Assembly (NCBI GenBank): GCA_024220525.1
Contig: JAMYWO010000022.1
Coordinates: 1 to 50,773, forward strand
Reading direction: 5' to 3'
Length of the DNA: 50,773 nucleotides
DNA from: Cochliopodium minus
Taxonomy: Eukaryota; Discosea; Himatismenida; Cochliopodiidae
The notes beneath the pieces were generated by a model that was not told the DNA's origin, searched no databases, and saw only the letters and a program-made list of their open reading frames with translations. The translations under genes were made by a program, and so were the position numbers. Shown one piece after another: positions 1,316 through 36,179 of the stretch (positions are counted from its first letter, which is position 1; the number at the start of each line of letters is the position of its first letter).

Positions 1316-3622
1316 TTATAGATGCTTAATAGACAATTGAAATACTTCTTCATTTGAAAAACTAGCAACAAAAGTTTCTTCGTTGATGGGAATCAAATCC
1401 AATAGCTGAAAATCTGTGGAAAGATTGTGGATCAACTTGAGAGAAGCATCAGAATGTTGGAGGATCATCAGATTGTTTCCAAAGGAGATCCAAAGATAAT
1501 CTTTCTCTTTCATAGAAGCAAGTTTCATCACATTTATGGAAGAAGTGAAATCGAAATTGAATCTTGATGAAAAAAAATGAAGATAAACAAAAGATAAAAG
1601 AAAAAAACAAAACAAAAGATTTTTGAAAAAAGTGTTACTTTGTCAAAAATGTTTTTGTGGAGATGACATAAACAGAGATACTTTTAGATGATGCAGCATA
1701 TAAAAAATTTTCATGAACAACTACGTTGACAATAGGATGATCAGATTCAAAGAAATGAAGAAAGGAGATCTTGTCATCGTTCTTGTCCCAACTCATGCAC
1801 AACACTCCTTTATCCGTAGAAACGTAGAATGGTGAATTTCTCGAGATAACATTGTAATCCGAAACATCCACACTCATAAACTCTTCTCCATATTGTGATG
1901 GAAGTAAGTATGGCTCTCCAACCAAAGCAAAAGGTTTCCAAATTCTCAAAGAATCGTTTGAAACAGTCAAAATCTTTTTAAAAAAAATTAAATGAAAATA
2001 AAAAAAAAAAGTAAAAAAAAAATATATTTACTCTTGAAGAAGACTTTTTTAACAACGATTTCTTTTTTTCTTCGTATAAAATAACTAAATGTTTCACATT
2101 CTTTTCATTATTCAATTTGCTAAGACTCTCAAAGTTTTTTTGGGAATGAAACTTCCACACTCTCAAGAAAGGTTCATTTACAGAAGAACTCCACAAACTT
2201 CCTTCGATCAATTCAATAGAATCACAACCAAAAGGGATGTCCTTGGTCTCGTTCCTTTTTTTGGAGATCAAGTTGTAGAGATCCACTTTCGTCCCTCCAT
2301 TCAATAACAAATACTCATTCTTTTTGTAATTGATCATTTTGAGTTGTTTTGCGATAAAGTGATAGTCGGGCAAGAAAGGAGAAATATTAAGAAAGAAGTT
2401 ACTTTGTTGGTCTAATTTTTGTTTATCAGTTTAAAAAAGAAAAAAGAAAAGTTAATTTTAAAATTGTTTTTGCCTTGATGAAAGACTTTGTTGTTTAATT
2501 TGGTCAATGTTGAGCTTTTGTTCTGTCTTTCATCTCTCAAACCCAACAAAGCACAAAACTTTTCGACAAGAAAAGAAGCACTGAGTCTATTCTCGGGATT
2601 ATGATCAAAGCACAACAAAGCGATCTGTTTGATCTCTTCACTGACACTTTCAGGGAAAATGGGTCTCAAGTTCTTTTCGGAAATGGCGTTCTTTATATCC
2701 ATTCCTCCGTTATTCCATACTTTAATACTCTTAGTGATGGACTTTGTTTCTAGTTCGCAAGTGGTGTTTTTGCTGCATTCTGATCCACATATTTTGCAAG
2801 TTATGACTTTTTCTTCCATTTCTTTGAAGGTTGCGTATTCGGCGTATTCGCTGAAAGGATAAACTATTTTTGTTTTAAAATTAAATTGATTAGGTTTTTG
2901 GAAAAAATAAAAAAGTTGTTTTAAAAATTTTTTTTTTACGTCTTGTGTATATTTCATATAAAACCTAATTTAAAAATGATTTTTTCTCAAGTAAATATTT
3001 CCAAATTTCAATTAGAAAAGTTTTTACAATTCCGAATGAATAACAATCACATCTTTTTTTTTTTGGGCAAAAAAAATTTGAATGAACAAAAAAAAATAAA
3101 ACAAAAACTTTGACAATTAAAAAAAAAATTTTTTACTTTTCGTTGTACTTCTTTCCATTGAAAACCTCTTTAAAGATATTTTTATTTTTTTTATCTTTTT
3201 TCTAAAATTTTTTTTTTATTATTACCAGGTGGGAGCCAACAAAAAGTCTCCAAAGCTTGGTTGAGGTTGGGTGAGACTGATTGAGCAAGTCCAAAATCAC
3301 CAACTTTTACCCTTACTGCACTTTTTATATCAGTGCTCATTACAAATATCTGTTACAAACAAATTTTATTATTTTTTTTTTTTTGAAAAAAAATTTTATA
3401 CGTTCGGAGATCTCAAATCTCTGTGTACTATTGGAGGTTTAAATGAATGTAGAAAATCAAGTGCCTTTGCAATATCATATGCAAAACTCATTTTAAGTTT
3501 ATCATTATCTTTTTATTGAGAATAAAAATATAAAATATAAAATATGAAATAAAAAATTTAATAAAAATAAAAATAAAAATAAAAATAAAAATAAAAATAT
3601 TTAATAAAAAATAAAGTAAAAA

Positions 3623-3653
<31 letters not shown>

Positions 3654-6600
3654 TAAAAATAAAAATAAAAATAAAAAAATAAAAATAAAAAAATAAAAAT
3701 AAAAATAAAAATAAAATATTTAATAAAAAATAAAATAAAAAAATAAAATTAAAAAAAAAAAAGATTACAAATATCATCAGGGAGTAATTTTTGATCAGCA
3801 AGATGAGCACGAAGATCTGGTAGCTGGCAAAACTCCATCACCATTCTCAACCTAGGAAAAGTGGTAATTCCGTACAAACGAACAACATTTTGGTGATCTA
3901 ATTGAGACATCATCCTTTTCCAAACAAAAAAATTTAATTTTTTAAAAAAAAAAATAAAAAGAAAAAAAAAAAAAAAAGAAAAAAGAAAAAAGAATTGATT
4001 TACATTACTTCGTGACTAAACTCTGAAAAATTTTGGTTGATGAGTGATGCATTTTGGTCTCCTTCAATCAATAATTCCTTAATGGCGACAGTGTGTTCCC
4101 CTGTACCAAATTTGGAAGGGAGGGTCAATATTCCCTCTACAAATATAAATTAATGAATAAAAATATTTTTATTAATTAAATGTTTACTGTAAACAGCTCC
4201 AAAGGATCCTTGTCTTTAAAAAAATATTAAAAATTAATTTTAAAATTGAAAAATAAATAAAATGTAAGAAGGAGATTAAGTTACCCCAATTTTTGACTAA
4301 CCACAATTTGGTTGTTCAATACGGAAACATGAGCCAATGTGATATCTGGTGCAAACGTATTTATTTCGTTAAGATGACCATTGGAACATTTCACTGATTT
4401 GACATCTTTGATGAAACAATCAACCACTTCAGAATGAGAGATCTTAGTAACTTCATTATTTCTGTCGCATTCAGCACAAATTAAATATCTCTTTATTTTC
4501 TCAGCAATCTTTGTTGTGTAAAATGCTATTTTTTAAAAAAAAATAAAAATAAAAAAATTAAAAACTAAAATATAATAAAAAAATATTGAAAATCAAAAGA
4601 TAATAAAGAATTAATGAAAATCAAAAATAGTTTTTTACTTGTAATGAGTGATTGTATTTCTTTGCATATTAATGTTACTAATGGAATTTTCAAACAAATT
4701 TTTTGATCTGTAATTCTTTTTATCAACTCTGTCTTCTTTTTGCTGTTTTGAATGTTGTTAACGATATCACTGCTAATCAAGTTGGTGACAGGGACAATTT
4801 GAGGTTTACTGATGGGTTGTTCCATCTTTGGTTTGTTGCTACATTTAGTTATGGTTGGTTTTCCTTTTTTCGTCATCCCTTTAGTTATAAAAATTTGATC
4901 TAATTCTCCACCTTTTTTTTCGAAAAATTCTTCATTCATTTTAGAAGGGAGAGGAGATTCTACTTTTTTGGAGTGTCTCTCTTTGAGAGGAGCTTTTTTG
5001 GACATCTTCTCGCTGTTGCAAGTTTTCTTCTCAAATTCTTTTTTATTTTCTCCCATCTTTGAGTCAAAAGAAGGAGATTTCTTTGTATTGGCATTAATGT
5101 TGGAGAGATCAACTTGGGGAGAAAGTGAACAAGACCCAGAGACATTAACAATATCCAAGGTAGGATCAACCTCAAATCTCTCAAAATCATCAATACACGT
5201 TTTTCCTTTTGTTTGCATCTTTTTTGTGTTTACTTTTTTTGATTTCACTTTTTTCGAAATCAATTTTTTTGAAGGCACATCTTGAGTGATCTCCACTTTG
5301 CTTTCAATTTTCGAAAGAGTGGGTTTGGAGATTAGACTCTCTTCTACTTTTTGAACGATAGGTATTTTTTGTGAAGGAGGTTCCTTAATTTCTTCCTTGG
5401 GAGTGTATTGGGAGATCACTTTTACAACGTATCTTGATTGAGAATGATCTACTTCGCACAACACCAATGCTTTGTCTCCAAATTCGTCAGATAACAATAC
5501 TCCATTTAACCAACTTTCCTCTACTCTAAAATTTCCAGAATTCAAAAATCTTACGATCAATCTCGAAAAGAATCCCAAAGCAATAAACTTTTAAAAATTT
5601 AATTTTTGTCAAAAAAAATATTTTTTTAACAATTTACTTGAAGATTAAATTCTCTTTTGTGAATAATCGTGGAACTATTCTTTGGAGGAGGCAAGAATCC
5701 TTTTTAAAAAATTAAATTGAACCAAATTTATTTGAAAAAAATCAAACCATGCTCATAGCTTGATTGAGTGGCTTTTGCAGGCAGGAGAGAAGGAATAAGC
5801 AAATGACTGTTTAAAGTAAAGAAAATGAATGTATTATTTTTTTTTGATTAAAATTTATACTTTAAATTTTCAAGATTTTTCTTTTTTTCCTGATCTTTTT
5901 CAATGTCTTTATAAGAACAATAGATAATTTCAAATTTCTCGAGAATATTTATGATTGTTTCTTGTACTGCATTAGAAAACTTGTGCTCTTTCCAGATTTC
6001 TTTTAATGAATTTAAAGGAACAACACCTTGTCTCCAATGACACTTGTAACTAATTATATCGCTCATTCTTTTAAAAAAATGTTAAAACAAAAAAATCTAA
6101 AATAAAATAAGAGAAAATTTTACCTATTTGCCAACCACTATTGAAAAAAAAAATTTTTTTAAATAAAAACCAAAAACAATAAAACTGTAATTTTCGTTTT
6201 TCACCTGACAATTAAATATTACAATATCAGAAAGAGAATTTTTTTGAACAGCATCCTGACTCGCACTTCCGAACCACATCAAACCTAAAAAAAAATGTCA
6301 TAGTTTAAAGTGTAAATAATTATAATCTAAAAATAATGTTAATTTTACTTCCACAATCGTTCAAAAACTTTGTTGCGCTGATGATGGATGCTTCCGAAAG
6401 TTTGTAACCCTCTAAATTAATTTTTTTCAAAAACAAAAAAATGAAAAATAAATAAAAAAAAATAATCAATAAAAAATTTTACCGATCAAAATTTTATATT
6501 CATTCCAAGAAACATATTCATTTTGTTTGGATGATTTAATTTTTTGAATGATGGAATCAATTTCATTGTAAAACTTTGGCACAACTTTGTTAACCAATTT

Positions 6601-9529
6601 CTTGTTGACAGCAATTTGTATGATGGATTCCTTCAATTGTTCAATACCCTCTTTGGTTATAGAACTAACAAATACATACCCAAGTATTTGTCTATTTTGC
6701 TTTATAATTCTTTCTACTTTTTCTTTTATAGGGTTGATATCCATATTTTGAGATTTGACCATGTCCAAGTGAGATCCAATCAAAAGTACGGAAGGCCTAG
6801 GAGTTCCATGGACCACACTATCTAAAGTAGCTACCCAATAGTTGATTCTCGTAAGAAAATTAGGATCTGTAAGATTGAAAGCTATAATATAAATAGATCT
6901 TCCAGTCAAAAAAAACTGATGAGTAGGATCTAATTTTAAATAAAAAAAAATGAAAAATAAGATAATGAAAAAAAAAAGAAAAGAAAAAAAGGAAATCTTA
7001 CAATAGATGACTTGTCCTCCAAAATCTTTTTTATTTTATGAAAATTTTTTAAAAGTCTTAAAAAATAGAGTAGGAAATAAAATAATACCAAAAGTTCTTA
7101 TAGTCAAGTTTCCAAAATCACTTTCTATATCCCAAGTTCCAATATCTATTCCATCCGTAGATACGTTCTCATGTTTATCAATACCTCTTAGAGATTTTAG
7201 CAAATGTGTCTACAAAAAAATTAAAAAAAAAATTTGAAAAAAAAAAATAAAGAGTTAATAAATTTAAAAAAAAAATACTTTTCCCACTCCCTCCTTTCCA
7301 ACAACAACTAAATGATGAAAATTTGTTATAAATATAATTAACAAAGTATTTTGTATCTTTACCTAGTTTAACAAGATTCCAAACTTCCTTTTGTCCTTCC
7401 AAATCAGCTAAATAAGTCTTCAATTGTTCAGGATTTTTGTTTTTTTTGAAAGGATCCAAAATTTCGTTGGGAATACTCGACAGAGAATTACCTTTCAACC
7501 AATCAGCTTTTTCCCAAGCCAAATACTTTAAAGTAGTTAAAAAAGAAGGAAGCCCAACGAGCCCATTGTTTGCTAACTTTATTTCTTGGAGATATTTAAG
7601 TTTAGAAATACATTGTGGAACATTAAGTAGAGAAGAATTTGAAAGGTCCAAGTTTTTTATTTGTTGGAGATAAGTTTCTTCTACATCAAACTGATTTAAA
7701 GGAGATTCCAAGAGAAGAGAAGTTAATTGTTTGTTCATCTTGCAAAGATCTTCTATCCTTTTCTTTTCGTTCAACAAAATTTTAGATCCTTTGTTGTACA
7801 AAAAAGAAATAACAGAAATGAAATTGGGTTCTACTTTTGGAGATTCTTTCAATGAACTGAAAACAGATTCGATAGGAGTAAGACCGTTTCCATTTGGTGT
7901 TTCAAGAAATATTGAAGCTCCATACTTGAAAAGAACTTTAAGAACCTCTTCCTTCCCATTCATGCAAGCATAGTCTATCATTGGAGGTTTAAGAAAGTCA
8001 AAACTGTCAACATCGACCGAGTCAAATAGTTTATCAAGGAGTTCTGCATTCCCGTCCTTAATTGCATTCCAAATACACTCTGAAAGCTTATCTTCGAGAT
8101 ACTTGATTGTTTCTGTTTTCTTGGAATTTATTGCATGATCCAAACATGTCTTTTTTGAATTATCTTTTTCTATCAAACAGCTCACCTTTAATTGCTCGAA
8201 AATATATTTAACACAATCAAGGTTTCCTTGGTAAGCTTTTGAAAAATTAAAATAGAATAATTTAAGATTATTTTTTTGATTATTTTACCTGCAACATGAA
8301 TTGCTGATGCTCCAAGTTCATCTTTGATATTCAGAGGAACATTCTTGTTTTTGAAATACTCAAATAAACCCGTTCTATTATAAGCAGCACAAGCTGTCAT
8401 TACTAAGGAATTTGATTTAAAAAAAAAAAATGGTGAACATTTTATTTTATTTTCTTACCATTCCAACCAGTTTGTCCCAAATTCTTTGAAATATCGTAAT
8501 TTTTTGTTGTGTACTAATTTAATAATGGAGATTAAAATTAGTATAAAATAAAAAATAGTTTATAATTTCTTTATACCTGATCCAATAAAGTGTTGCTGTT
8601 ATAATTTATGATGGACTGAATAAGATAGTACAAGTTTTTATCTTCTTCATTTAAATTGTTAATCAAATTTTTTTCTTCGGACATTATCTGAGTAGCTATC
8701 CTCGATATATTGTTGTCTATTTCTTGTACATAGTAGTTTGTCTGTGAAATTTCTTCCTGTTCATAATTTTCGTTTGAAATATCTTGATCATCCATCTCAT
8801 CATTATTGTTTATTTGTTCAGCATAATTTGATCTTAATCTCATCACAAGATTTAAAGTAGAATTACTCTGTATTCCATATTCTTTTCGGAAATTTGGATA
8901 ATAATTTCTTAATATAATATTATACTTCTATATATTAATACCATTGCAAGTTCTATCATTTTGTAATTGTCTTCCTGAGAAAATTAAACTAAAATAGGTA
9001 TAAATAATTAAATTTCCAATTTTTCTTTTATAAAATTTTACTTTTGCTGTTCTGTTAATATTCCTTCTTTATCTTGGATCATTCCTTTTAAATCTGATAT
9101 AGTATCATATGGAGAAACATCTAATACAAATGATTTTCCGGTCATTGTCTTTATATTGATTTGTATTCTAATCTCCTCTTCATCATCATCATCATCATTT
9201 CTTGAATTTTCTTCATATGATTCATTATTATCTTGTCCCCATTCATTCTCGCTTTTATTTGAATTCCATTGTTGATATGATCTGTTGTTATTTCTATTTG
9301 GTGAATATGAATAGCTTTGTTGCTGGGAATATTTTTGTTGTTGAATTGAATTTCTTTTTTGATCTGTTTTATAAGGAGTATCAATCATTTCTTTTGTATA
9401 CATTTGTTCTGTATATACTTGTTCTCCGTATACTTGAGGATCTTGTAAATCATCATTTACTGGAGATGAATTTAAAGAGTTTATATTATTATTGTTGCTG
9501 TTAATCGATCCAGTATTCGTATTGCCCAT
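1316..9529 (-). CDS. UBL-ankyrin-LRR-Roc-COR-kinase-WD40 Roco protein (LRRK-like)
   Basis: Thirty exons join in frame to 2048 residues: 9042-9529, 8942-8988, 8577-8881, 8459-8513, 8289-8402, 7363-8235, 7279-7307, 7089-7209, 7002-7025, 6483-6929, 6349-6411, 6205-6284, 6124-6137, 5861-6067, 5748-5806, 5638-5699, 4639-5587, 4285-4525, 4188-4213, 4004-4136, 3769-3914, 3402-3508, 3226-3349, 3137-3167, 3028-3052, 2940-2964, 2474-2863, 2032-2411, 1639-1973, 1316-1562. Residues 1-118 are Asn/Gln-rich. A ubiquitin-like fold follows (119-197, LIFSGRQLQND core). Next come ankyrin-like helices (about 296-450), LRRs (about 526-596), Roc (P-loop GKEGVGKT, G3 DFGGQ, G4 GSHLD) and COR (QWLA, GFFSRLIVRF). The kinase (about 1388-1690) shows GQGSFGAVY, VAIK, HRDLRSPN and DFG, and a WD40-like region ends the protein. 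The kinase core is close to Dictyostelium Roco4. One intron (2412-2473) has a GC donor; one exon is 14 bases. Expected role: GTP-regulated Ser/Thr kinase of cytoskeleton or membranes. Confidence 0.9.
3509..3768. repeat. AAAAAT simple-repeat intron in the Roco gene
   Basis: This is the intron between the kinase exons 3769-3914 and 3402-3508. From about 3560 to 3720 it is almost pure AAAAAT/AAAAAAT repeats on the + strand (T-rich in the sense direction). An open frame on the minus strand (3601-3810) that would encode mostly Phe, Ile, Leu and Tyr is an artefact of this repeat. Confidence 0.8.
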
Positions 9530-9951: not shown

Positions 9952-12668
9952 TTATTTATTTTTCAAATTTGACATTTCAACAAATTCATTAGTTTTTATC
10001 TTTGAGTAATATCTGTAAGATAACAGAGACAAAGTTACAATGAAAATAAGACCCAAAGGTATACCAATAGCTAAACCAAGAATAAGTCCTAGATCTCTCT
10101 TACAATTTTTGTTAAAGTCAAAGTGAAGAGACATGGAAAGTGAGTTTTGTCTTTCATTCAAGACATTGGAGTAATCATCACACTTGCTGTCTTTATAATT
10201 TGGGGTTACTTTTACTTTGGACAAATCAACTTGTGTTTTGTTTGGACAGTTGTATTGAAACATCAATAAATCTAAATCTGAAACATTAGGTTTAGAGTTG
10301 ATGTTCAAAATGAGAGTTCCATTTATATTTAGGCAACCAGAAATATTCAAAGTGGGTGAGTTTTTATCAGTGTCAAAATTTAGAAAAATGGTAGAGTTTT
10401 CTGTAAAAGTTACATTGCCAATTATATGTGTCATTGAAGATAATTGAACAGAAGAAGTCAAAACAATTTGACTCGAAAATATAGACTTGAAAATCCACAC
10501 CCAATTTGGAGAAAAAAATTCACAAGTGATGTTGAATAGAGATTGGTCAAGTGAAATAGTCTCTTTTGGACATTTATCACAGTTTGGTGTTGAATAAACA
10601 CAACCAGATGGAATAGTAGTTGATGAAAGATTAGTAGCAATTGGGGGAATAGTTATTGGTGTGATAATAGATGGAGTGGATATACTTTGAGTTGAAGAAA
10701 GAGTTTGGGTTGAAGTTTCTATTGGTGTTAACGTTGATGGTGAAAGTGTGTTCGGACTTTGATTAATAGTAGGTAACTGAGAAGTTGATGATTGTGTTGG
10801 GATGTTGGTTGTTGGATCTGTAGTTTGAATGTAAGTGGTCGAAATGTTAATAGTTTGATTGTTTGGGGTTGGAGATTGAGTAGGATCTGTAGTGGTTGGA
10901 ATATTTGCGGTAGGGGAATGTGTAGGATTTGGGGTAGTAGGGATGTTGGTTGTGGAATCTATGGTTGTTGGAATGTAAGATGTAGGTGAGTGTGAACTGG
11001 AGACGTTAGTTGTTGGAGCTGGAGTTGGAGATGGGAAAGGAGTGTTAGAGACAAAAGAATAGTTGAAAAAACAAGATGGTATCTCCAATGGAAGAATTTC
11101 CACTAATAAATTGTAACCATCCCAAACACCATTCTCGTTAAAATTAACAATTACATTGGTGTACATATTGCTACAATTATTCCCTACAGCTTCACCAAAA
11201 TAAACATTATCACCTTGACTATCTTCTATATATTGAAGTTTGCATACTGTTGATGTGTTATCATAGAACACTTTGCTTCCTATGTTTATTGATGAAGTGT
11301 CACTTAAATCTATTATTTTTCCAATAACAATTCCAGAAACAGTTCCAGAAAGCAAATGATTTGAAAGATAAACAGTATTTATATTTAAAATACTATTTGT
11401 CGTAAAATTGACCACTCTAATTTTTTAATTTTTTTTTATTTAAAAAATGATTTTTTGATGTTAAAAAAAAAAATTTTACCCAAAGATCCCTCCAACAGCT
11501 GTTTGAGAATCTATTGAGTTTCCATTTAGAAAACATCTTGTATAACTATCAGAAAAAGTATAAATTTGGGATTGAATTTTCATCAAAGCACAGCCAAAAA
11601 GGCCTCCTAAACTTTGGAAACAAATTTGAATGATTTTTTTTATTGAGAAAATAATTGAAAATTACTTTTGAGAAACATTGAGATGCACAGTTGATCTTAC
11701 ATATAGTTGAGACACCAGTATACAGTCTTGTATCAATCCCCCTATTGCTCCTGTATATCCTAATGGGTTAATTACAGTTGATTGGAAAGTGCCAGATATC
11801 ACCCCACTTTTTATAATGTTGGTGCTTATGGCTTTTTATTTTGAAAGATTGCTATTTAATTTAAAAAATTAATTTTTTTTTTTTTATGAACCATATCCAA
11901 CTATTCCTCCTATTGCTTTGGCAGATCCATTGATAATCACTGCATTTTGATCTGGAATTCCAATATTCACACATTCAGTGATGTTTGAATTGCTTGCATA
12001 TCCTATCAATCCTCCGACTGATTTTTGAATATTATTTGTTGTTATCTGGTTAATTAAATTCATTTAGACCGAAATTTACTCATATTTTTAAATTTTCTTA
12101 CTTTTGTGTTATTTATTTTGCAATTAGAAATTGAACTAAATTCCATATTCCCTATCATTCCTCCAATGTTTACAACTAAAGTTCCATTAGCAATTATTGT
12201 GTTGGTTATTTCACCGTTGATTTCTATATCCTCTATTTCACATCTTTCACAAAATCCAGCTAATACTCCAACATTTGTGTCATTTGCAAAAATATTGAAA
12301 TTCGAAAATCTCAAATTTTTTATTATAACTCCCTTTCCACTTCCTATCAATCCTACACTCAAATTGAATCTAATTTTTTAATATTTAGTCAAAAAATTTT
12401 ATATTATAAATTAAATTTGCATTTACATTCTGAATCCATTGCCTAAAATCATTCCTTTGAAAGGATTGGTATCATTTCCAATTGGATTTGAAAGATTAAG
12501 GCAATCTAAATTATTGCTCAAATTATAAATGATGGAACCATCAGAAACTTGGGAATCAGTTAAATTGATGAATTGATCGCAATTAATCAAGTTAATAGTT
12601 TCAGAATTTTTAAAAACGAATGAAGATGTGAAGATAAATAAAAACACTAAAAACTCTTTGGTTTTCAT
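9952..12668 (-). CDS. GLUG-repeat, mucin-like type I surface protein
   Basis: Six exons (12427-12668, 12102-12369, 11892-12045, 11666-11831, 11480-11611, 9952-11416) encode 808 residues. The start gives a signal peptide (MKTKEFLVFLFIFTSSFVF). The N-terminal third holds repeated GLUG-type units, for example SVGGLIGYASNSNITEC and TAVGGIFG, which in other proteins form a right-handed beta-solenoid. Next comes a Thr/Ser/Pro-rich stalk (11040-10650) built on loose IPTTxDPTxSPT copies, probably heavily O-glycosylated. A Cys-containing beta-rich module with many N-glycosylation sites follows, then one membrane helix (LGLILGLAIGIPLGLIFIV) and a short basic cytosolic tail. It looks like a cell-surface adhesin or coat protein; the ligand is unknown. 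Exon phases agree at every junction. Confidence 0.85.
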
Positions 12669-12941: not shown

Positions 12942-14859
12942 TTAATTTCTCATCCAATTAAAAACTAGAGCGTCACTAATAACCCAACAAAAACTATCTC
13001 TGTGATCATCAAAGTTGAGAGTGATGAGCCTAACAACACCACAACAACCTTCCTTCAAAATGGAAGCAAAAGAAAAACGAAAGACAGCACAACACAACAT
13101 GGAACAAATAGAAGCGAACATGCCAATACAAAAAAATAAAAAAGAAGTTGCAGTTATAATAATAATATAAGGAAAAATCAAAAGAATTTTGAGAGGTAAA
13201 GGCTTGTTAGACTTGAAAAGATAATAAACAACTTTGAAAATGGCCAAAGTGAGACAAATTAGAGTTATGATCAAGACGTAGACAGGAGCAAAGATGGAAA
13301 AAAGAACAGAAGTGAAAATGGCGAGCAAGAAAATGAGAAAACAGCAGAAATCTTTGTTGTGGATGTGCTCTGAAACACTCTTAATATTGAACTCTCTTTT
13401 CAAAAAACTTTTGCGCATGAGTTGATCTTGACTCATAATTGTCTTTTCAATGATATGTTTCAAAGCAGAGTTAATATTTTGAGGCTGCCAGTTTGTCTCA
13501 ATCACTTCATCAACGTTAAACTTTACCAAATCATAAAAATCTTTGTTGTCCTCATTTTTTTCAACTTCTAAAAAGGTCCAATCTTCCAGCACCTCTCCTT
13601 CTTCTTCGTCCTCCTTTCTCTTGTAGTTTTCCAACAGTCCTTCTTTGACAGTATCCTCTTCGTTCAGGTATTTTCCATCATCTAAAAGAATAGAAACAAC
13701 CTCCAGATCATTATTCTCATCTCTTCTAAAATCATTTTCTAATTCACCAAACTCTTCACCAAGATTTTGTTGAATGATCATTTTCTTCTCTGGTTTCTCT
13801 TTTTCAAAATCTTCATTATGATCTTCTTCTTCAATTGTTTTTTGATTCCATTTGATGGACATTTCCTGAATTTTAATTTTTTCTTCATATGGTTCCTCAT
13901 TGAGCAACAGCATAAACTTTTTAGAACCTTCAATAAATCCATATTGAGCTACAACAGCATTATTTTCGGTTGATTTTTTCTTGTCTTTGATGAAAACGAA
14001 TGATGTTAATCCTAAAAGAATTTTAATTAATTATTTGTTTGTGCGGATCTTTTAATAATTTCCTCTTTATTTTTGTTTTGTAATTTTTTATGATTTTCCT
14101 ACCAATACATGTATATCCATTGTACCTCGAGATCAAATGATATGGATATAAATTTGTGAGATGGATCATATATTCTTTATTTTCGTACATCGCCTTGAAT
14201 TTCAATCCCATTCCCTCTTCCCATTTCTTGCTAGGCAAAATGGATTCTCCATTTTGATTTAATTCATTATTTTTCACCATATTAACCAGTTTCTCTTAAT
14301 AAGAGAATGATTAAGATAATTTTATTATATTCGATATTTCAATCAAATTTCATACCATATGCTGCAGTATCATTGTCTCCATTCAAAATTACGATATAAA
14401 TATCTCTTATATTTTTTCCATCATCTTCATTCACTTCATTTATTCTATATAGGTGTTTGGTTTAATTATTTATAAAGAGTGTAAAAAAATTTTAATATTT
14501 CTCTTATTACCTTTTGAATACTTTGTATAGTTCTCCTTTTTCAGAATTTTCTGTTTCAATATTTCCAACCACCTTTATAAATAATAAATTAAAAAGTGAT
14601 TATTTTGATTTATTTTTATTGGATACCATCAAATGTTTGATTATTTGTTGATGATTCATTATATTGTATTTCCATAGCTCATCTCTCTTGAATAAAGCAT
14701 TCCATCTTTTGCATACCTATATCAAAAAAAATGATCAATTAAAATCAATTGAAGATAGAAAATTCTTACTTGAGATGCAATCTTTAGATCATTCAATTGC
14801 AATAATTTGAAAATATGAAGAATAACATAGTTTGGCAGTTTATCAATATGGCCTTCCAT
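12942..14859 (-). CDS. Membrane-bound F-box protein, paralogue A
   Basis: Six exons (14770-14859, 14627-14716, 14511-14572, 14356-14444, 14103-14294, 12942-14011) give 530 residues. Residues 3-45 form a clear F-box (LPNYVILHIFKLL, then VCKRWNAL and DELW), the part that docks to Skp1 in SCF ubiquitin ligases. A middle region of about 150 residues has no recognised fold, and an acidic linker follows. The last 130 residues hold about four hydrophobic helices (CCFLIFLLAIFTSVLF to MFASICSMLCCAVF) and end FNWMRN. An F-box protein with a polytopic membrane anchor is not a standard architecture; I infer an SCF-type ligase acting at a membrane. Paralogues B and C lie next to it on the same strand. Confidence 0.85.
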
Positions 14860-15017
14860 TTTTTTATTTTATATTATTATTAATAAATAAACACCAATAT
14901 AATTAACAGCCACGAAAAAATTATGTGGAAATCACAAATGGGAAATCACAGTGAGGAAAAGTTATTATTTTAAAGTTTCTTCAAAAAAATTAAAAAATTA
15001 AATAAAATTAAAAAAAT

Positions 15018-16991
15018 TTAATTTCTCATCCAATTAAAAATAAGAGAATCACTGATCAAACAACACATGTTTCTATCATTGTCATCAAAGTTGAGAGTAA
15101 TCATCCTATAAACACCCCAACAACCCTCCCTTAGTACCCAATGAAAACCCAAACAAAAAGCAGTGCAACAAAATATAGATAAAATGGAGAGAATAACGCA
15201 AACAATAATGAAGAAGAAAGTTACAGCAGTTACAACAATAATATAAGGACAAACCAAAAGAACTTTGCACGGAAAAGGCTTGTTCGTCCTGCAAAGATAA
15301 TAAAACACTTTGAAGATAGCGAAAATGAGACAGATGATAGAGACGACGATAATGTAAGCAGGAGTTGCAACCAACAAAACAAAGGAAACAAGAATGGCGG
15401 TCAAGAAAATCAAAAAACAACAAAAATCTTTTTTTCGGATGTGTTCTGAAACGCTTTTGATGTTTCTTTCTCTTTTTATAAATTTTTTGCGCAAGAGTTG
15501 ATCTTGACTCATAATTGTCTTTTCAATGATATGTTTCAAAGTAGAGTTAATATTTTGAGGATGCCAGTTTGTCTCAATCACTTCATCAACGTTAAACTTT
15601 ACCAAATCATAAAAATCTTTGTTGTCCTCATTTTTTTCAACTTCTAAAAAGGTCCAATCTTCCAATTCCTCTTCTCGATCATCCTCCAAAACAATTTCTT
15701 TTTCCGAAGAACCCACAAAAGTTTTTTTATTCTTCTTTTTACTTTTTTTTTCTTTTTTAATAAATATATCATCCTTATTTTCATCGTCTAACTGTATAGT
15801 AACAACCTCCATCTCATTTCCTTCATCTCCTTTGTTACCTTGATTCATCTCATCAAACTCTTCACGTAAATTTTTTTCTTTGATCAATTTCTTTTCTTCT
15901 TTTTTAATATCCCCATCATCTTGTTCAATCTTTTTTTGATTCCATTTGGTTGACATGTCCTGTATTTTTATTTTTTCTTCGTGAGGTTCATCATTGAGCA
16001 ACATCATAAACTTTTTAGAACCCTGAATGGAGGCATAACTACCCACAGTAGCATTATTCTCTGTCGCATTCTTCTTGTCTTTGACGAAAACAAAGGATGT
16101 TAAACCTAAAAAAAAAAAAATTCAACAATAAGATTGTTTCAAAGCGGATCTTTTAACACTAATATTTCCTTTAAAATAAATTTTTTAATGGAATTACCTA
16201 CACAGGTATATCCATTTACTGTAGATATCAAATGATGTGGATAATAGTTATAGGTGAGTTTTATCATATATTCTTTGTTATTATATAATGCTTTGAATTT
16301 GAGTACTGCTCTCTCATTTAATCCGTTGTTGGGTAAGAGAGGCAGAAAAGGTATTTCATCTTTATTTTCTCCTTTATTTTTCATCATATTCATCAATTTA
16401 TCTTTAAAAAAATAAAATGATTGGAATCAAAGTATAAAAATATTCAAATATCTTTGTTTTTTGATATTTCATACCATATGCTGCATTATCATTGTCTCCA
16501 TTCAAAATTACGATATAAATATCTCTTATATTTTTTCCATCATCTTCATTCACTTCATTTATTCTATATAGTTGTTATTTGGTTTAATTATTTATAAAAA
16601 GAGTGTAAAAAAATTTAATATTTCTCTTATTACCTTTTGAATACTTTGTATAGTTCTCCTTTTTCAGATTTATCTGTTTCAATATTTCCCACCACCTTGT
16701 AATGAAGTTTAAAAGGAAAATAATCATAAAATAATTGGATAGGATACCATCAAATGTTTGATTATTTGTTGATGATTCATTATATTGTATTTCCATAGCT
16801 CATCTCTTTTACATAATGCATTCCATCTTTTGCATACCTAGATTGAAGAGATAAATAAAGTAATTCCATTAAATCAAAAAGGAAATAGAAAATTCTAATA
16901 CTTGAGAAGCCATTTTTAGATCATTTAATTGCAATAATTTGAAAATATTCAGAATAACATAGTTTGGCAACTTATCAATATGTCCTTCCAT
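15018..16991 (-). CDS. Membrane-bound F-box protein, paralogue B
   Basis: Six exons (16902-16991, 16748-16837, 16634-16695, 16475-16563, 16198-16401, 15018-16105) give 540 residues. Exons 1-4 have exactly the lengths of those in paralogue A. The F-box (LPNYVILNIFKLL, VCKRWNAL, DELW) and the C-terminal membrane segment (AILVSFVLLVATPAYIIVV to ILSIFCCTAF) are both kept, ending FNWMRN. It differs from A mainly in the acidic/lysine linker and in the membrane helices, while one stretch of about 160 bases is almost identical to A. Its start codon is 129 bases from the oppositely oriented small membrane-protein gene, so they probably share a promoter region. Confidence 0.85.
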
Positions 16992-17120
16992 TTTTTTTTT
17001 AAATGAATTCTTTTTTCAATAGAGAAGATGATGAAAATTTATGAATCATATCCTTTCAAGGGGTCTTTTCAAATTTAATTAAAAGATTATTGACTTTTAT
17101 TAAGAGAAAAAATAAAAAAA
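16992..17120. promoter_or_regulatory. Short divergent promoter region
   Basis: The start codons of F-box paralogue B (minus) and the four-helix membrane protein (plus) face away from each other across 129 bases of AT-rich DNA. Any promoter elements for both genes must lie here or inside the genes. No specific motif is claimed. Confidence 0.4.
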
Positions 17121-17744
17121 ATGCATTTTTTAACTGCAAAAACAATATTTGGAGATACATCTCTACTATTTAACTTTTTCTTCAATATTATTAGCTTGTT
17201 TTATTATTTATTCAAAGGTAAATAAAGGTTTATGGAGTTAAAAATGATTTTATCAACTTTTAAAATTTACTCATTCAATTCCATTTGCTCCATAGCCAAC
17301 AAATACTATCATATATTGCCAAATAATTTGATCACAAAATTCAGTTCAAAAAAGGACAACATAAAATATGGTTCAAAAAAATCCTTCATACTTATCTATA
17401 TAGGGACATTGCTTTTCAATTTCTTTATATTTTGCTTTGTATATTATATAATAGATCTATTCTTCGGAGAATCCTATCATAATTACATCAATCTTCCAAA
17501 AAAAGATTATTGGCTTGCCAACAACGAAAGAAAACATACAGCAGTGGTTTTCATTATGAATTCAATGTTGCTGATGAGTACAGCTACAACTGTTCTCATG
17601 GGTTCTCTCTTTATAATGACTGCTCAAACAAACATACAAAGAAAAAATCATTTACCATCTTTCTCCAACTTTCTCACATTACTTTATTTGTTGTTTATAG
17701 TGATAGATGTTTTTTACATGATTTATTTCTTCAATAAAATTTAA
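17121..17744 (+). CDS. Small polytopic membrane protein, unknown function
   Basis: Two exons (17121-17217, 17296-17744) give 181 residues; the junction splits an Ala codon and both splice sites are canonical. Three strong hydrophobic helices are visible: one around FILIYIGTLLFNFFIFCFVY, one around VVFIMNSMLLMSTATTVLMG and one in LLYLLFIVIDVFYMIYFF. A weaker fourth covers the first 30 residues. There is no motif I recognise. It sits between F-box paralogues B and C on the opposite strand, and its stop is only 32 bases from the stop of paralogue C. It could be a passenger trapped in the tandem array or a functional partner of those membrane proteins; the sequence does not say which. Confidence 0.7.
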
Positions 17745-17776
17745 AAAAGAAATTTTAATAATTAAAAACTTTTTAA

Positions 17777-19517
17777 TTAATATTTCATCCAATTAAATAA
17801 AAAATGGTCACTCAAATAACAACATTTGTTTTCTCTAATGTAATGAGGATAAATAAAGTTAAGTGTCCACAACTTTTTAAAACCAAGTATACCTTCTTGA
17901 GTGATCATCCAAAAAGAATAGCCAAGCAGAGAGAAACACATTATTGAAAGAGAAAGCACAATGAAGCCACCAAGTAGAAAAAGTAGAAAGAACATTAGAA
18001 CAATGAAAAGGTAAGGGATTATCAATAAAACTTTGAAAAGAAATTTTCTTTTGCTTTTAAACAAGAAATATTGAGATTTGAAAATTGCAATAAACATGGA
18101 TGATATTAACAAAGTAACAAGGTAGATAGGACTAAGAAATACCATCAAAATTGAAGAGAAAAAAGCGAGAAAGTAAATGATGAAGCTGTAAAGATCTTTG
18201 TTTTTTCTGTGCAAAGCCATTTTCTTGTAATTCTTTCCTTGTTCATATAAATAATTTGGCATTACACTTTTGTGGTGAGAAATAGAAGTTTCTATGATGT
18301 ACTTTAAAGCTGTCTTTATGTTTTTGTTTTGCCAGTTTGTTTCTATCACTTTGTCCACCTTGTACTGAACAACATCTACAAATCCTTCATTCCTTTCATT
18401 TTTATCTACCTCAAAGAGATTCCATTCTTCAAATTCTTCGTTTTCTACCTGATTCTCATTTTCTATTACATATTTTCTATTTTCTATTGTTACCATTTCT
18501 ATTTCTTCTCCTTCTGCTACTTCTCCCAAATCTTCTTTTAGACTAGGAGAAGAGAAAGGATTAAATTTCTCTAATTTTGTTTTGCAAAGTTTCACCGAAA
18601 GATCTTGTAATATCATTCCCTCTCCATAAGGTTCATTATTAATAATGTAAAGAAATTTATTACAGCCAGTGATATTATAGTGATTATACTTTTCGTTATC
18701 TCCATTTTCTTCATCTTTTGTTTTAAGATAAATAAATGATGTATAAGGACAATATCTGGGTCAAAAAATTAGTAATTAAAATGAAATAAAATCAATTAAT
18801 TTTAATACCTAAATCCATTAATGGTTGTCAACAAGTCTGGCAGGTAAGATTTTGTCAGATGGATTACATATTCTTTGTTTTCGTATATTGCTTTGAATTT
18901 AATCCCTCCTCCCTCTTCCCATTTCATAATAGGTAAAATAGATTCTTCATCATCATTGTTTTTTACTCCATTTCTAACTAAATTAGTCAATTTATCTATT
19001 TTCGATTTTTTTATTCAATTTTTGGTGAAATTAAATATAAATTTAAATAAATTTTACCAAATGATTCATTCTCTTCATTTGTATTCACAATTACAATATA
19101 TAGATCTTGTGAATCTTCATCATCCCTTTCCGAAGTGAGATAAAACTTTTTAAATAAATTTCTTAGTTTTCCTTTTTCAGTTGCTCGTGTATTAATTCTC
19201 CCCAAAACCTATTTAGTGATCATTTAGTAATAATTTCAAAAAGATTGTCAAAAAAAATACCATCAAATGTTTCAAGTTTTCTTCATGGTTTGAAAGAAAA
19301 AAACTCCACAATTCATCTCTTTTTGACAAAGAATTCCACTTTTTTGAAACCTAAAATTGAAAAAAAGAACAACAAACTTTTAATTAACTCTTCAAACCTA
19401 AACACTTTTTAAATTTACTTGGGAAACAAACTTGATTTCTTTCAATTTTAAAAACTTAAAAATGTGAATAACAACACAACTGGGCAACATTTCAATATAA
19501 CAACCATCCATCTCCAT
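17777..19517 (-). CDS. Membrane-bound F-box protein, paralogue C
   Basis: Five exons (19419-19517, 19261-19350, 19058-19208, 18809-18995, 17777-18755) give 501 residues. It is the most divergent of the three: the F-box is degenerate (LPSCVVIHIFKFL, VSKKWNSL, DELW, with Cys of VCK replaced by Ser). The membrane segment (YFLAFFSSILMVFLSPIYLV onward) and the FNWMKY ending are kept. The intron that splits exons 3 and 4 in A and B is absent here, and the last intron is in phase 2, not phase 1. A second in-frame Met at residue 3 is an alternative start. Same inferred role as A and B. Confidence 0.82.
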
Positions 19518-34391: not shown

Positions 34392-36179
34392 TCAACCCAA
34401 GATCGAATTCTTCAAAGGAGTGGTACATTCACCAGAAGAAGTCAAACAAACATGGTTGGTGCTGAAAACAGCCTTTCCATCCTCGTTAGCAGTCAACAAC
34501 TTGAGGATCTTCTTCAAACGATCAGATTTCAAAGTAGGTTCAGGATCTTGCTTGTCCAAACCAGACCAAGTGACTCTCTCACCAACTTTAGCATTCTCAG
34601 GAACATCTACAAGCTTTACAACGACTTTATCATCAACAGTAACGTTAGAAGCAACAACCATACCTTCGGAGATGATTCCCAACTTTCCGATATCGGTGGA
34701 GACCAAGTTGCACATGACCAAAAGCTTACGTCCCTTGAGTTCTTCGAGTTTGTAGTGCTCGGCCAAACCACTGATGATGGTACGAGGCTTCTCCTCACCA
34801 ACATCAATCTTTTCGACGTACAATCTGTCGGACTTGGGATGTTTCTCGATGTCAATGATGTGTCCAACTCTCAAGTCGATTTCATAAGGGCTGAGAGGTT
34901 TGGGTTGGTTCTTCTTTGGTTGAGTTTTAGGTACATTTTTGGTTTCGACTTTAACTTCGAGAGAAGGGTATGCTTTACTGAGCAAATCCTTGTTTTGTTG
35001 GCAAAACTCCCTCAAAGGAGCAAGGAACTCTACGAGAATGCTGGTGATGGCAACTTTGAGATCCCCACTTACTAACTCCTTCTTGTCGAAAGCCTCCTCA
35101 GTTTCTTCGTAGTTTGAAAACTTTTGAGGACCTCCAAACTTCTCAGGTCTAGGAATCTCGAGAACTCTCCCCTTTGATTCGAGCCATCTGAAAAGAACAT
35201 ATTTCAACATAGCAAGGAGACCATTACCCTTTGATTCCCCATCGAGAGAGTATGCTTCCTTGATCTTCTTCTTCAAAAGATTGACATCATCGTCGAAATC
35301 GATCTTGCCTCCCTTATCTGAGGAACTCATCTTTACATTCTCTCCTTTGGTGACTGGTTTTCCAAGCCCTGGGATGAGAGGATTCATCAAATGGCTTCTT
35401 TTCTTATAGCCGATCTTTGGCATGTATTCTCTGGCGAACATGAAGATCTTTCTTTGATCTACTCCACCGAATTGTGCATCTACATCGAGATATTCTTCAT
35501 CCAATGCTTGCAAGATAGGATATAAAAGAGAACTCATCAATGGTGTCTCTGATGTTTTCACTACCTCTGCTCCTGCATGTGATGTATCTCTAGTTGTTAC
35601 CATTGCACTCATTTTGTACATATCCAAGGTATATTTCTCAGATAATTGGTATGATGTACCTTTATATAATTTAAATTTTGTTAAAATATCAAAGTATAAA
35701 GGATAATATCTTTCTATATCTCAAAAAAAAAAAATAATATTTTGCTGTTATAATTATTCACTTTATCAAGAAAAAAAAAGAGTATTTATCAAAAATTTTT
35801 TTTTACCTCTCACAAATTTCAATTTTTCAAGTGGTACTCCAACCAATTTTAACATTTCTTTTATTACTTTTTCGTACCAATCACATCTCAATGCAAGCAA
35901 TTCCCATGAACTCTTCATATTATCCAAATATGCATGCAAATCTGCAAAAAGGATGGTCACATGGCAACCAGCTCTCAAGTAATCACTGATTTTAAAAATT
36001 GGTACAAAATATCCGAAATGAGGTTTTCCAGTTGTTGCAGTACCCCAATATATCTTCAAATCTCTTTCTGACAAAACTTTTTTCAAATCCTCTTCTCCAA
36101 TTACTTCTTGCAATTGGTTTGTGATGATTTCGTATTTTTTGATAGCTTCTTCAGTTGGTTGAAATTTATTATTCTCCAT
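34392..36179 (-). CDS. Tyrosyl-tRNA synthetase with EMAP-II tail
   Basis: Two exons (35807-36179, 34392-35713) encode 564 residues. The class I catalytic core is eukaryotic-type Tyr[17 protein letters not shown] carries the HIGH-like signature and [14 protein letters not shown] the KMSKS loop. It charges tRNA-Tyr in the cytosol. After residue about 390, a Lys/Pro linker leads to an OB-fold EMAP-II domain ([37 protein letters not shown]), as in animal TyrRS, where it binds tRNA and can act as a cytokine after cleavage. The second exon is long and intron-free, with a higher GC look than its neighbours, as expected for a highly expressed gene. The start is the only ATG before the conserved helix. 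Confidence 0.93.

Follow-up and report, generated by a model that had tools for sequence, protein, structure and literature searches.

Does a single gene of Cochliopodium minus place a ubiquitin-like domain (UBL) in front of a Roco kinase, and if so, from where could such a domain come and what could it do there? The question is raised by a locus in a window of 50,773 nucleotides, i.e., the whole stretch of DNA that was analysed (GenBank assembly GCA_024220525.1, contig JAMYWO010000022.1, hereafter C22), within an AT-rich assembly (about 25-30% GC) of 44.65 Mb and 598 contigs with short introns. A Roco gene on the minus strand starts with the ATG at 9529, its stop codon has 1316 as the last position, and joining its 30 exons in a splice model built by hand gives a single open frame of 2048 aa, in which 28 of the 29 introns are GT-AG and one is GC-AG (48-260 bp). 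A preliminary description of this DNA had read 1316..9529 as one frame headed by a UBL; this reading is borne out, and the junctions that it listed (8942/8881, 8577/8513 and 8459/8402) are identical to the exon ends of our model. With moderate confidence we favor the view that the locus encodes a Roco kinase with a fixed N-terminal UBL, derived from a captured ubiquitin and retained for docking or regulation. The single protein would be laid out as UBL, ankyrin repeats, leucine-rich repeats (LRR), Roc, COR, kinase and a C-terminal region.

The UBL is recognizable before any splicing is assumed, as its first exon matches PF00240 in a six-frame search of the genome (C22:9041-9160, E=1.5e-7). In the spliced model the match covers aa 124-195, 72 of 72 positions, with E=8.2e-23 and 80.4 bits versus a cut-off of 25.4. 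The splice sites were picked by hand with ubiquitin in mind, which speaks for an artefact, be it a chance UBL produced by the chosen sites or a misassembled contig. An independent splice search, allowing 0-2 GT-AG introns of 45-110 bp downstream of the first UBL exon and scoring with BLOSUM62 against the genome's own ubiquitin, recovered LTEQQNLIFSGRQLQNDRTCNEYGIQSNSTLNLVMRLR with a score of 107 and the same UBL exons as the preliminary description, whereas 100 dinucleotide-preserving shuffles gave a mean of -13.3 (standard deviation 6.8) and a maximum of -1. The unspliced match and the shuffle control speak against a UBL arising by chance and, with UBL-Roco combinations also at two further loci (C173 and C71, below), an artefact of either kind is scarcely credible. 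A more serious objection is that two neighbouring genes were joined, a short UBL protein made of exons 1-3 and ending in ...LLDQV*, and a Roco kinase starting downstream. Unspliced exon 3 indeed reads into a stop, and in a genome that looks so compact, where a same-strand frame starts at 1232, 84 bp past the Roco stop, an intergenic gap of 63 bp is conceivable. The one start available to a separate Roco gene would be an ATG at the beginning of exon 5 (aa 300), which precedes the Pfam ankyrin match (aa 302), so that the entire match would be retained.

Two features of the following exons argue against this separation. Exon 4 has no in-frame ATG and the TAG of its acceptor lies in frame directly upstream, hence, if this exon is translated, its reading frame has to come from a coding exon further upstream by splicing. 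In addition, intron 3 is in phase 0 here and in the paralogues C317 and C137, in an ungapped alignment made by eye (Q before and YTTKNYDISKN after the intron in C22, Q and FLGKDFNPIVN in C317, K and CLPDKFDPTIN in C137), with an aromatic residue at the sixth and Asn at the eleventh position after the intron in all three. Such conservation fits coding sequence on both sides, and since C317 and C137 are themselves devoid of a UBL, the shared intron indicates that exon 3 is part of the Roco gene. Moreover, in C173 a single unspliced frame holds both the UBL and the beginning of Roc. UBL exons that end before the ankyrin exons, an arrangement that the preliminary description had itself raised, are thus argued against, with the ATG of exon 5 leaving a possibility; we regard two separate genes as very improbable, and the union of a UBL with an LRRK-like Roco kinase in a single predicted protein as supported.

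The remainder of the predicted protein has the features of a group 2 Roco protein, namely Roc followed by COR, LRR N-terminal to Roc and a kinase after COR. In Pfam searches of the spliced model the ankyrin repeats matched PF12796 (Ank_2, E=7.7e-16, best stretch aa 302-383), Roc matched PF08477 (E=4.5e-16, over the cut-off) and PF00071, COR-A (PF16095, E=2.5e-18, over the cut-off) followed right after Roc, and a kinase (PF07714, E=3e-45) lay C-terminal to COR. COR-B (E=2.9e-5) reached 24.4 bits where its cut-off demands 27, and the LRR (PF23598, E=0.0044) was likewise under the Pfam cut-off and aligned with the solved LRR protein 4u06 (E=1.2e-12). Neither RING nor UBA families were matched. 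Calling the protein LRRK-like, as was done previously, is loose; it suits LRR-Roc-COR, the nearest solved structure of which is human LRRK2 (E=4e-23; 4wnr was also matched), and less so the kinase, which is nearest to Dictyostelium Roco4 (4f0f, E=6e-47, with GQGSFG, VAIK, HRDLRSPN and DFGL aligned), or the N-terminal part, as none of the 15 Pfam families matched at E<=0.1 is an ARM family. Of the series of domains proposed earlier, ankyrin, LRR, Roc, COR and kinase are all confirmed by Pfam or PDB matches, and WD40 is not, having no match of note.

Two other genes of the genome carry the same combination. At C173 an unspliced frame of 626 aa includes a UBL (PF00240, E=4.9e-28) and continues to KTIWKNVKLVLLGKE, which covers the first part of Roc as far as half of the P-loop; there an intron intervenes, and the following exon provides GVGKTALL; downstream are matches to COR-A (six-frame, E=8e-4) and to a kinase (tblastn, E=1e-23). 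Neither ankyrin nor LRR was seen by Pfam on this frame between UBL and Roc. At C71 a gene cut by the contig end (C71:1-4912, all on one strand) has the order UBL-UBL-RCC1-ankyrin-like-LRR-Roc: PF00240 matches twice in a frame of 324 aa, and downstream of it come RCC1 (E=2.8e-9), exons resembling ankyrin repeats (E=2.6e-4 by tblastn) and exons for LRR and Roc (E=1e-25 for the joined pieces in tblastn). As three genes share the UBL-Roco combination, a single accidental fusion is unlikely. Genome-wide, a UBL lies upstream of a Roco-type locus, within 5 kb and on the same strand, in 3 pairs versus 0.21 expected, with no pair downstream or on the opposite strand, a rough statistic in which one of the three pairs is the window finding itself, C22 and C173 enter with COR-A matches below the cut-off and C71 was picked by eye. 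Its input was 59 merged UBL loci and 65 merged Roco-type loci, the latter composed of 60 COR-A matches merged with 8 places picked by eye, C71 among them; 21 of the 60 matches exceeded the curated cut-off, 3 of these only thanks to neighbours in frame. As side observations, the RCC1-Roco combination of C71 may be unusual too, and the 60 COR-A matches (21 over the cut-off) could reflect an expansion of Roco genes relative to Dictyostelium, for which the accessible text of PMC11378527 gives 11 ROCO genes.

What kind of UBL is it? Identity to the genome's own ubiquitin over 76 positions is 40 for C22, 58 for C173 and 52 for C71, and between the Roco UBLs it is 40 (C22-C173), 34 (C22-C71) and 47 (C173-C71), each UBL being at least as close to ubiquitin as to the others (C22 ties at 40). 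I44, G47, S65 and T66 are retained in all three and position 70 is V or Ile. In place of Gly75-Gly76 we find SN (C22), GN (C173) and AQ (C71); with Gly76 lost in three of three and Gly75 in two of three, neither conjugation nor release by deubiquitinases is expected, and the three domains look like fixed modules rather than releasable tags. A cleavable ubiquitin fusion was also considered and judged unlikely, Gly-Gly being absent.

Several observations weigh against the view that we favor. The paralogues closest to the window gene over aligned Roc-COR columns, C137 and C317 (60% identity each) and C126 (47%), had no UBL in whole-protein tblastn or in the open reading frames upstream of their ankyrins, a call qualified by the unclear true start of C126 and by a stretch of N further upstream of C137; the UBL would accordingly be dispensable for this Roco type. 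PF00240 is present in none of the 61 listed Roco relatives by their precomputed domains (the domain list of P0023 being incomplete), and no listed Roco relative matches the window UBL by blastp, hence the UBL-Roco combination is not shown to be conserved across species. Six of 74 listed proteins matched the UBL region by blastp at E<=1, and for none of the six are Roc or COR among the listed domains. A UBL-only search of the protein collection gave 18 candidates by shared words, none of which scored; this is no proof of absence and is uninformative, because long multi-ubiquitin proteins should share words too. Among the matches listed for the full-length search, 13 proteins in number, most were multi-ubiquitin proteins or kinases of other types. 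Weighing on the same side, the six-frame COR-A matches of C22 and C173 fall under the family cut-off, the C71 frame 626-1171, which holds only the P-loop portion and intron read-through, has no Pfam Roc match, the Ile44 face of the window UBL is only partly kept (L8M, R42N and H68N, with V70 retained), and WD40 was undetected in aa ~1709-2048, where no Pfam family appeared at E<=5 under filters that drop most matches above 0.1.

For the same C-terminal region no PDB sequence match was better than E=0.31, and by blastp none of the 74 proteins from the full-length and Roco relative searches matched it at E<=1. In the genome itself weak matches, the best with E=0.064, were found in five Roco loci, perhaps not all of them C-terminally complete. 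As P0014, the top Roco relative among the matches listed, has propeller-like matches behind its kinase, all of them sub-cut-off, a diverged propeller is possible in the window protein as well, and the region may be a diverged beta-propeller.

The distribution of the UBL bears on its origin. In a Roc-COR tree the window gene groups with C126, C137 and C317 with a support of 0.999 (0.917 when Roc is used by itself), and C173 lies outside this group; C71, dropped from this tree for its few columns, could not be placed on Roc alone. The alignment was anchored on the window sequence, which shortens the window branch, and the tree was used only to judge how the UBL is scattered. Since the three UBLs are no closer to one another than to ubiquitin and the closest paralogues of the window gene show none, the scatter suggests repeated capture or exchange, with repeated loss as a possible alternative. 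The partners differ over at least three genes, being ankyrin-LRR, RCC1-ankyrin-LRR, or Roc directly. We tentatively entertain the broader idea, which we hold less likely than its opposite, that one protist lineage repeatedly put ubiquitin units on the fronts of Roco kinases, producing a small class that physically unites a ubiquitin-receptor handle, like that of Parkin, with an LRRK-type GTPase-kinase.

Taking together the domain order, the joined frame, the loss of Gly-Gly, the retained I44 and V70 and the two further UBL-Roco genes, all read from the sequence, we infer how such a protein might be regulated, located and expressed and what its ligand might be. The UBL, most likely descended from a captured ubiquitin unit, would bind through its Ile44-type face to surfaces of ubiquitin receptors, i.e., proteasome subunits or UBA/UIM/CUE proteins, or alternatively fold back onto the kinase's own parts, and GTPase-controlled kinase activity would thereby be placed where ubiquitin signals are read. 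The coupling to the proteasome or to ubiquitin receptors suggested in the preliminary description is plausible, its basis at the level of sequence being I44, G47 and V70, kept with the three substitutions named above around them. The retained Ile44 and the lost tail would fit a fixed module engaged either in receptor docking or in internal control of the kinase.

The second of these options overlaps with the explanation that the UBL is an intramolecular autoinhibitory or allosteric module rather than an outward dock. The UBL of Parkin and the ubiquitin-like domains of TBK1/IKK are modules of this kind, acting inside the molecule. The window UBL is positioned N-terminal to the ankyrins and its N-terminal fragment gives a weak, sub-threshold Pfam match to TBK1_ULD (E=0.033). 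Scaffolding domains of LRRK2 help in autoinhibition, according to the accessible part of PMC13304329. Conversely, between the UBL and the ankyrin exon lie 84 aa with 18 acidic residues, a linker that is probably flexible, and in C173 a UBL is present with no ankyrin or LRR seen before Roc; in view of this acidic linker and of the C173 arrangement, outward docking appears somewhat more likely, and a purely internal role, while possible, is the doubtful one of the two. A different proposal is that the UBL serves as an N-terminal ubiquitin-fusion (UFD-type) degron and that the kinase is short-lived. Stable N-terminal ubiquitin fusions are degraded via the lysines of the fused ubiquitin (PMC3564756 and PMC5303827, as far as their accessible text goes), and the missing Gly-Gly should block release, as this proposal demands. 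In the window UBL, however, M stands in place of K29, R in place of K48 and S in place of K63, with K6, K11, K27 and K33 kept, and the loss of K29 and K48 speaks against such a degron in the window copy. The argument does not reach C71, which retains K29, K48 and K63, or C173, which retains K48 and K63; overall we consider a degron unlikely. Docking or regulation by a fixed module is the reading that we prefer. The parts of the gene are listed below.

Table 1. Parts of the UBL-Roco gene, with positions in the window
Feature	Positions	Strand	Basis
Exon 1, 5' part: Asn/Gln-rich leader, aa 1-120	9170..9529	-	hand model
Exon 1, 3' part: first half of UBL, from aa 121	9042..9169	-	six-frame PF00240 match
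Exon 2: middle of UBL, LIFSGRQLQNDRTCN	8942..8988	-	hand model and splice search
Exon 3, 5' part: end of UBL, EYGIQSNSTLNLVMRLRSN; Ser-Asn for Gly75-Gly76 of ubiquitin	8829..8881	-	hand model, splice search
Exon 3, 3' part: 84-aa linker from UBL to ankyrin exon	8577..8828	-	no stop between linker and UBL
Intron 3, phase 0; site and phase common to UBL-less paralogues C317 and C137	8514..8576	-	
Ankyrin repeats, aa ~281-510; exons 4, 5 and part of 6	7715..8513	-	PF12796
Short LRR, aa ~526-600	7445..7669	-	weak in Pfam; 4u06 alignment
Roc GTPase, aa 626-790; P-loop GKEGVGKT, switch II DFGGQ	6616..7369	-	PF08477, PF00071
COR, aa 803-1060	5396..6579	-	COR-A; COR-B under cut-off
Protein kinase, aa 1387-1699; GQGSFG, VAIK, HRD, DFG	2562..4304	-	PF07714; Roco4 kinase 4f0f
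C-terminal region, aa ~1710-2048, proposed WD40	1316..2531	-	sequence search without notable match

Around the gene, the short minus-strand frame that begins 84 bp past the Roco stop (1086-1232) is faintly CUE-like (PF02845, E=0.18, 12 bits versus a cut-off of 21.1); CUE domains bind ubiquitin. The upstream neighbour (9952-11424, minus) is a frame rich in Thr, Pro and Ser that resembles a surface protein and has a hydrophobic segment in its C-terminal part, and beyond it three similar membrane-protein-like frames stand in tandem at 12942-18760 on the minus strand (12942-14030, 15018-16121 and 17777-18760). At 34392-35720, minus, lies a frame for a tRNA synthetase of the tyrosyl/tryptophanyl type with a C-terminal tRNA-binding domain. 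Elsewhere in the genome, at L058:2294-7780, a USP9X/USP24-like deubiquitinase frame has an internal UBL.

Parkinson's disease involves LRRK2, Parkin and PINK1 as separate proteins, and the mechanistic link between them is debated. A UBL fixed on a Roco kinase would be a natural and testable case of both modules acting together, and it enlarges the N-terminal repertoire of a family whose architectures are known to vary. Among the papers listed by the literature searches, judged by titles and the openings of abstracts, no description of a UBL on a Roco protein was found, and the word ubiquitin occurs 0 times in the main text of a Roco review (PMC6337361) and of a survey of brown algal ROCO proteins (PMC11378527). 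The partners that the accessible parts of these two sources name are ankyrin, armadillo, cNB, RasGEF, N-GEF, GRAM and WD40, and further DEP, RhoGEF, PH, TPR, CARD, death and TIR. The earlier claim that the architecture had not been described thus holds for the proteins and the literature searched, and within this known family UBL-Roco is apparently an undescribed architecture. As far as the accessible text of PMC13304329 goes, 11 proteins of the ubiquitin-like domain superfamily make this superfamily an enriched one in the proximity proteome of LRRK2, which hints that LRRK2 may meet UBL proteins in trans. In a wider reading, UBL-Roco kinases might form a class wired to the ubiquitin system.

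With Roco group 2 (Roco4, LRRK1/LRRK2) the predicted protein shares the LRR-Roc-COR-kinase core in the same order, and with LRRK1/2 also the N-terminal ankyrins (PMC6337361, in its accessible part). It differs from the group by its N-terminal UBL, by WD40, the C-terminal propeller of LRRK1/LRRK2, being undetected and by the absence of an armadillo match, armadillo repeats being N-terminal in LRRK2. Among Roco kinases a possible parallel is P0018, a protein of 2367 aa from a EukProt transcriptome, which may likewise begin with a ubiquitin superfold, but one that matches a Raf-like RBD (aa 8-78) at a sub-threshold 21.1 bits (cut-off 25.7); the Raf-like RBD is another ubiquitin-superfold family, one that binds Ras. 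Parkin and the UBL-UBA shuttle proteins have an integral N-terminal UBL that is not released, and the window UBL appears to be integral in the same manner, whereas the remainder of the protein is a GTPase-kinase with no RING or UBA match. In TBK1/IKK kinases the ubiquitin-like domain is located behind the kinase domain; a ubiquitin fold is thus found on a kinase in both cases, and in the window protein it is predicted to sit instead near the N-terminus of a Roco protein.

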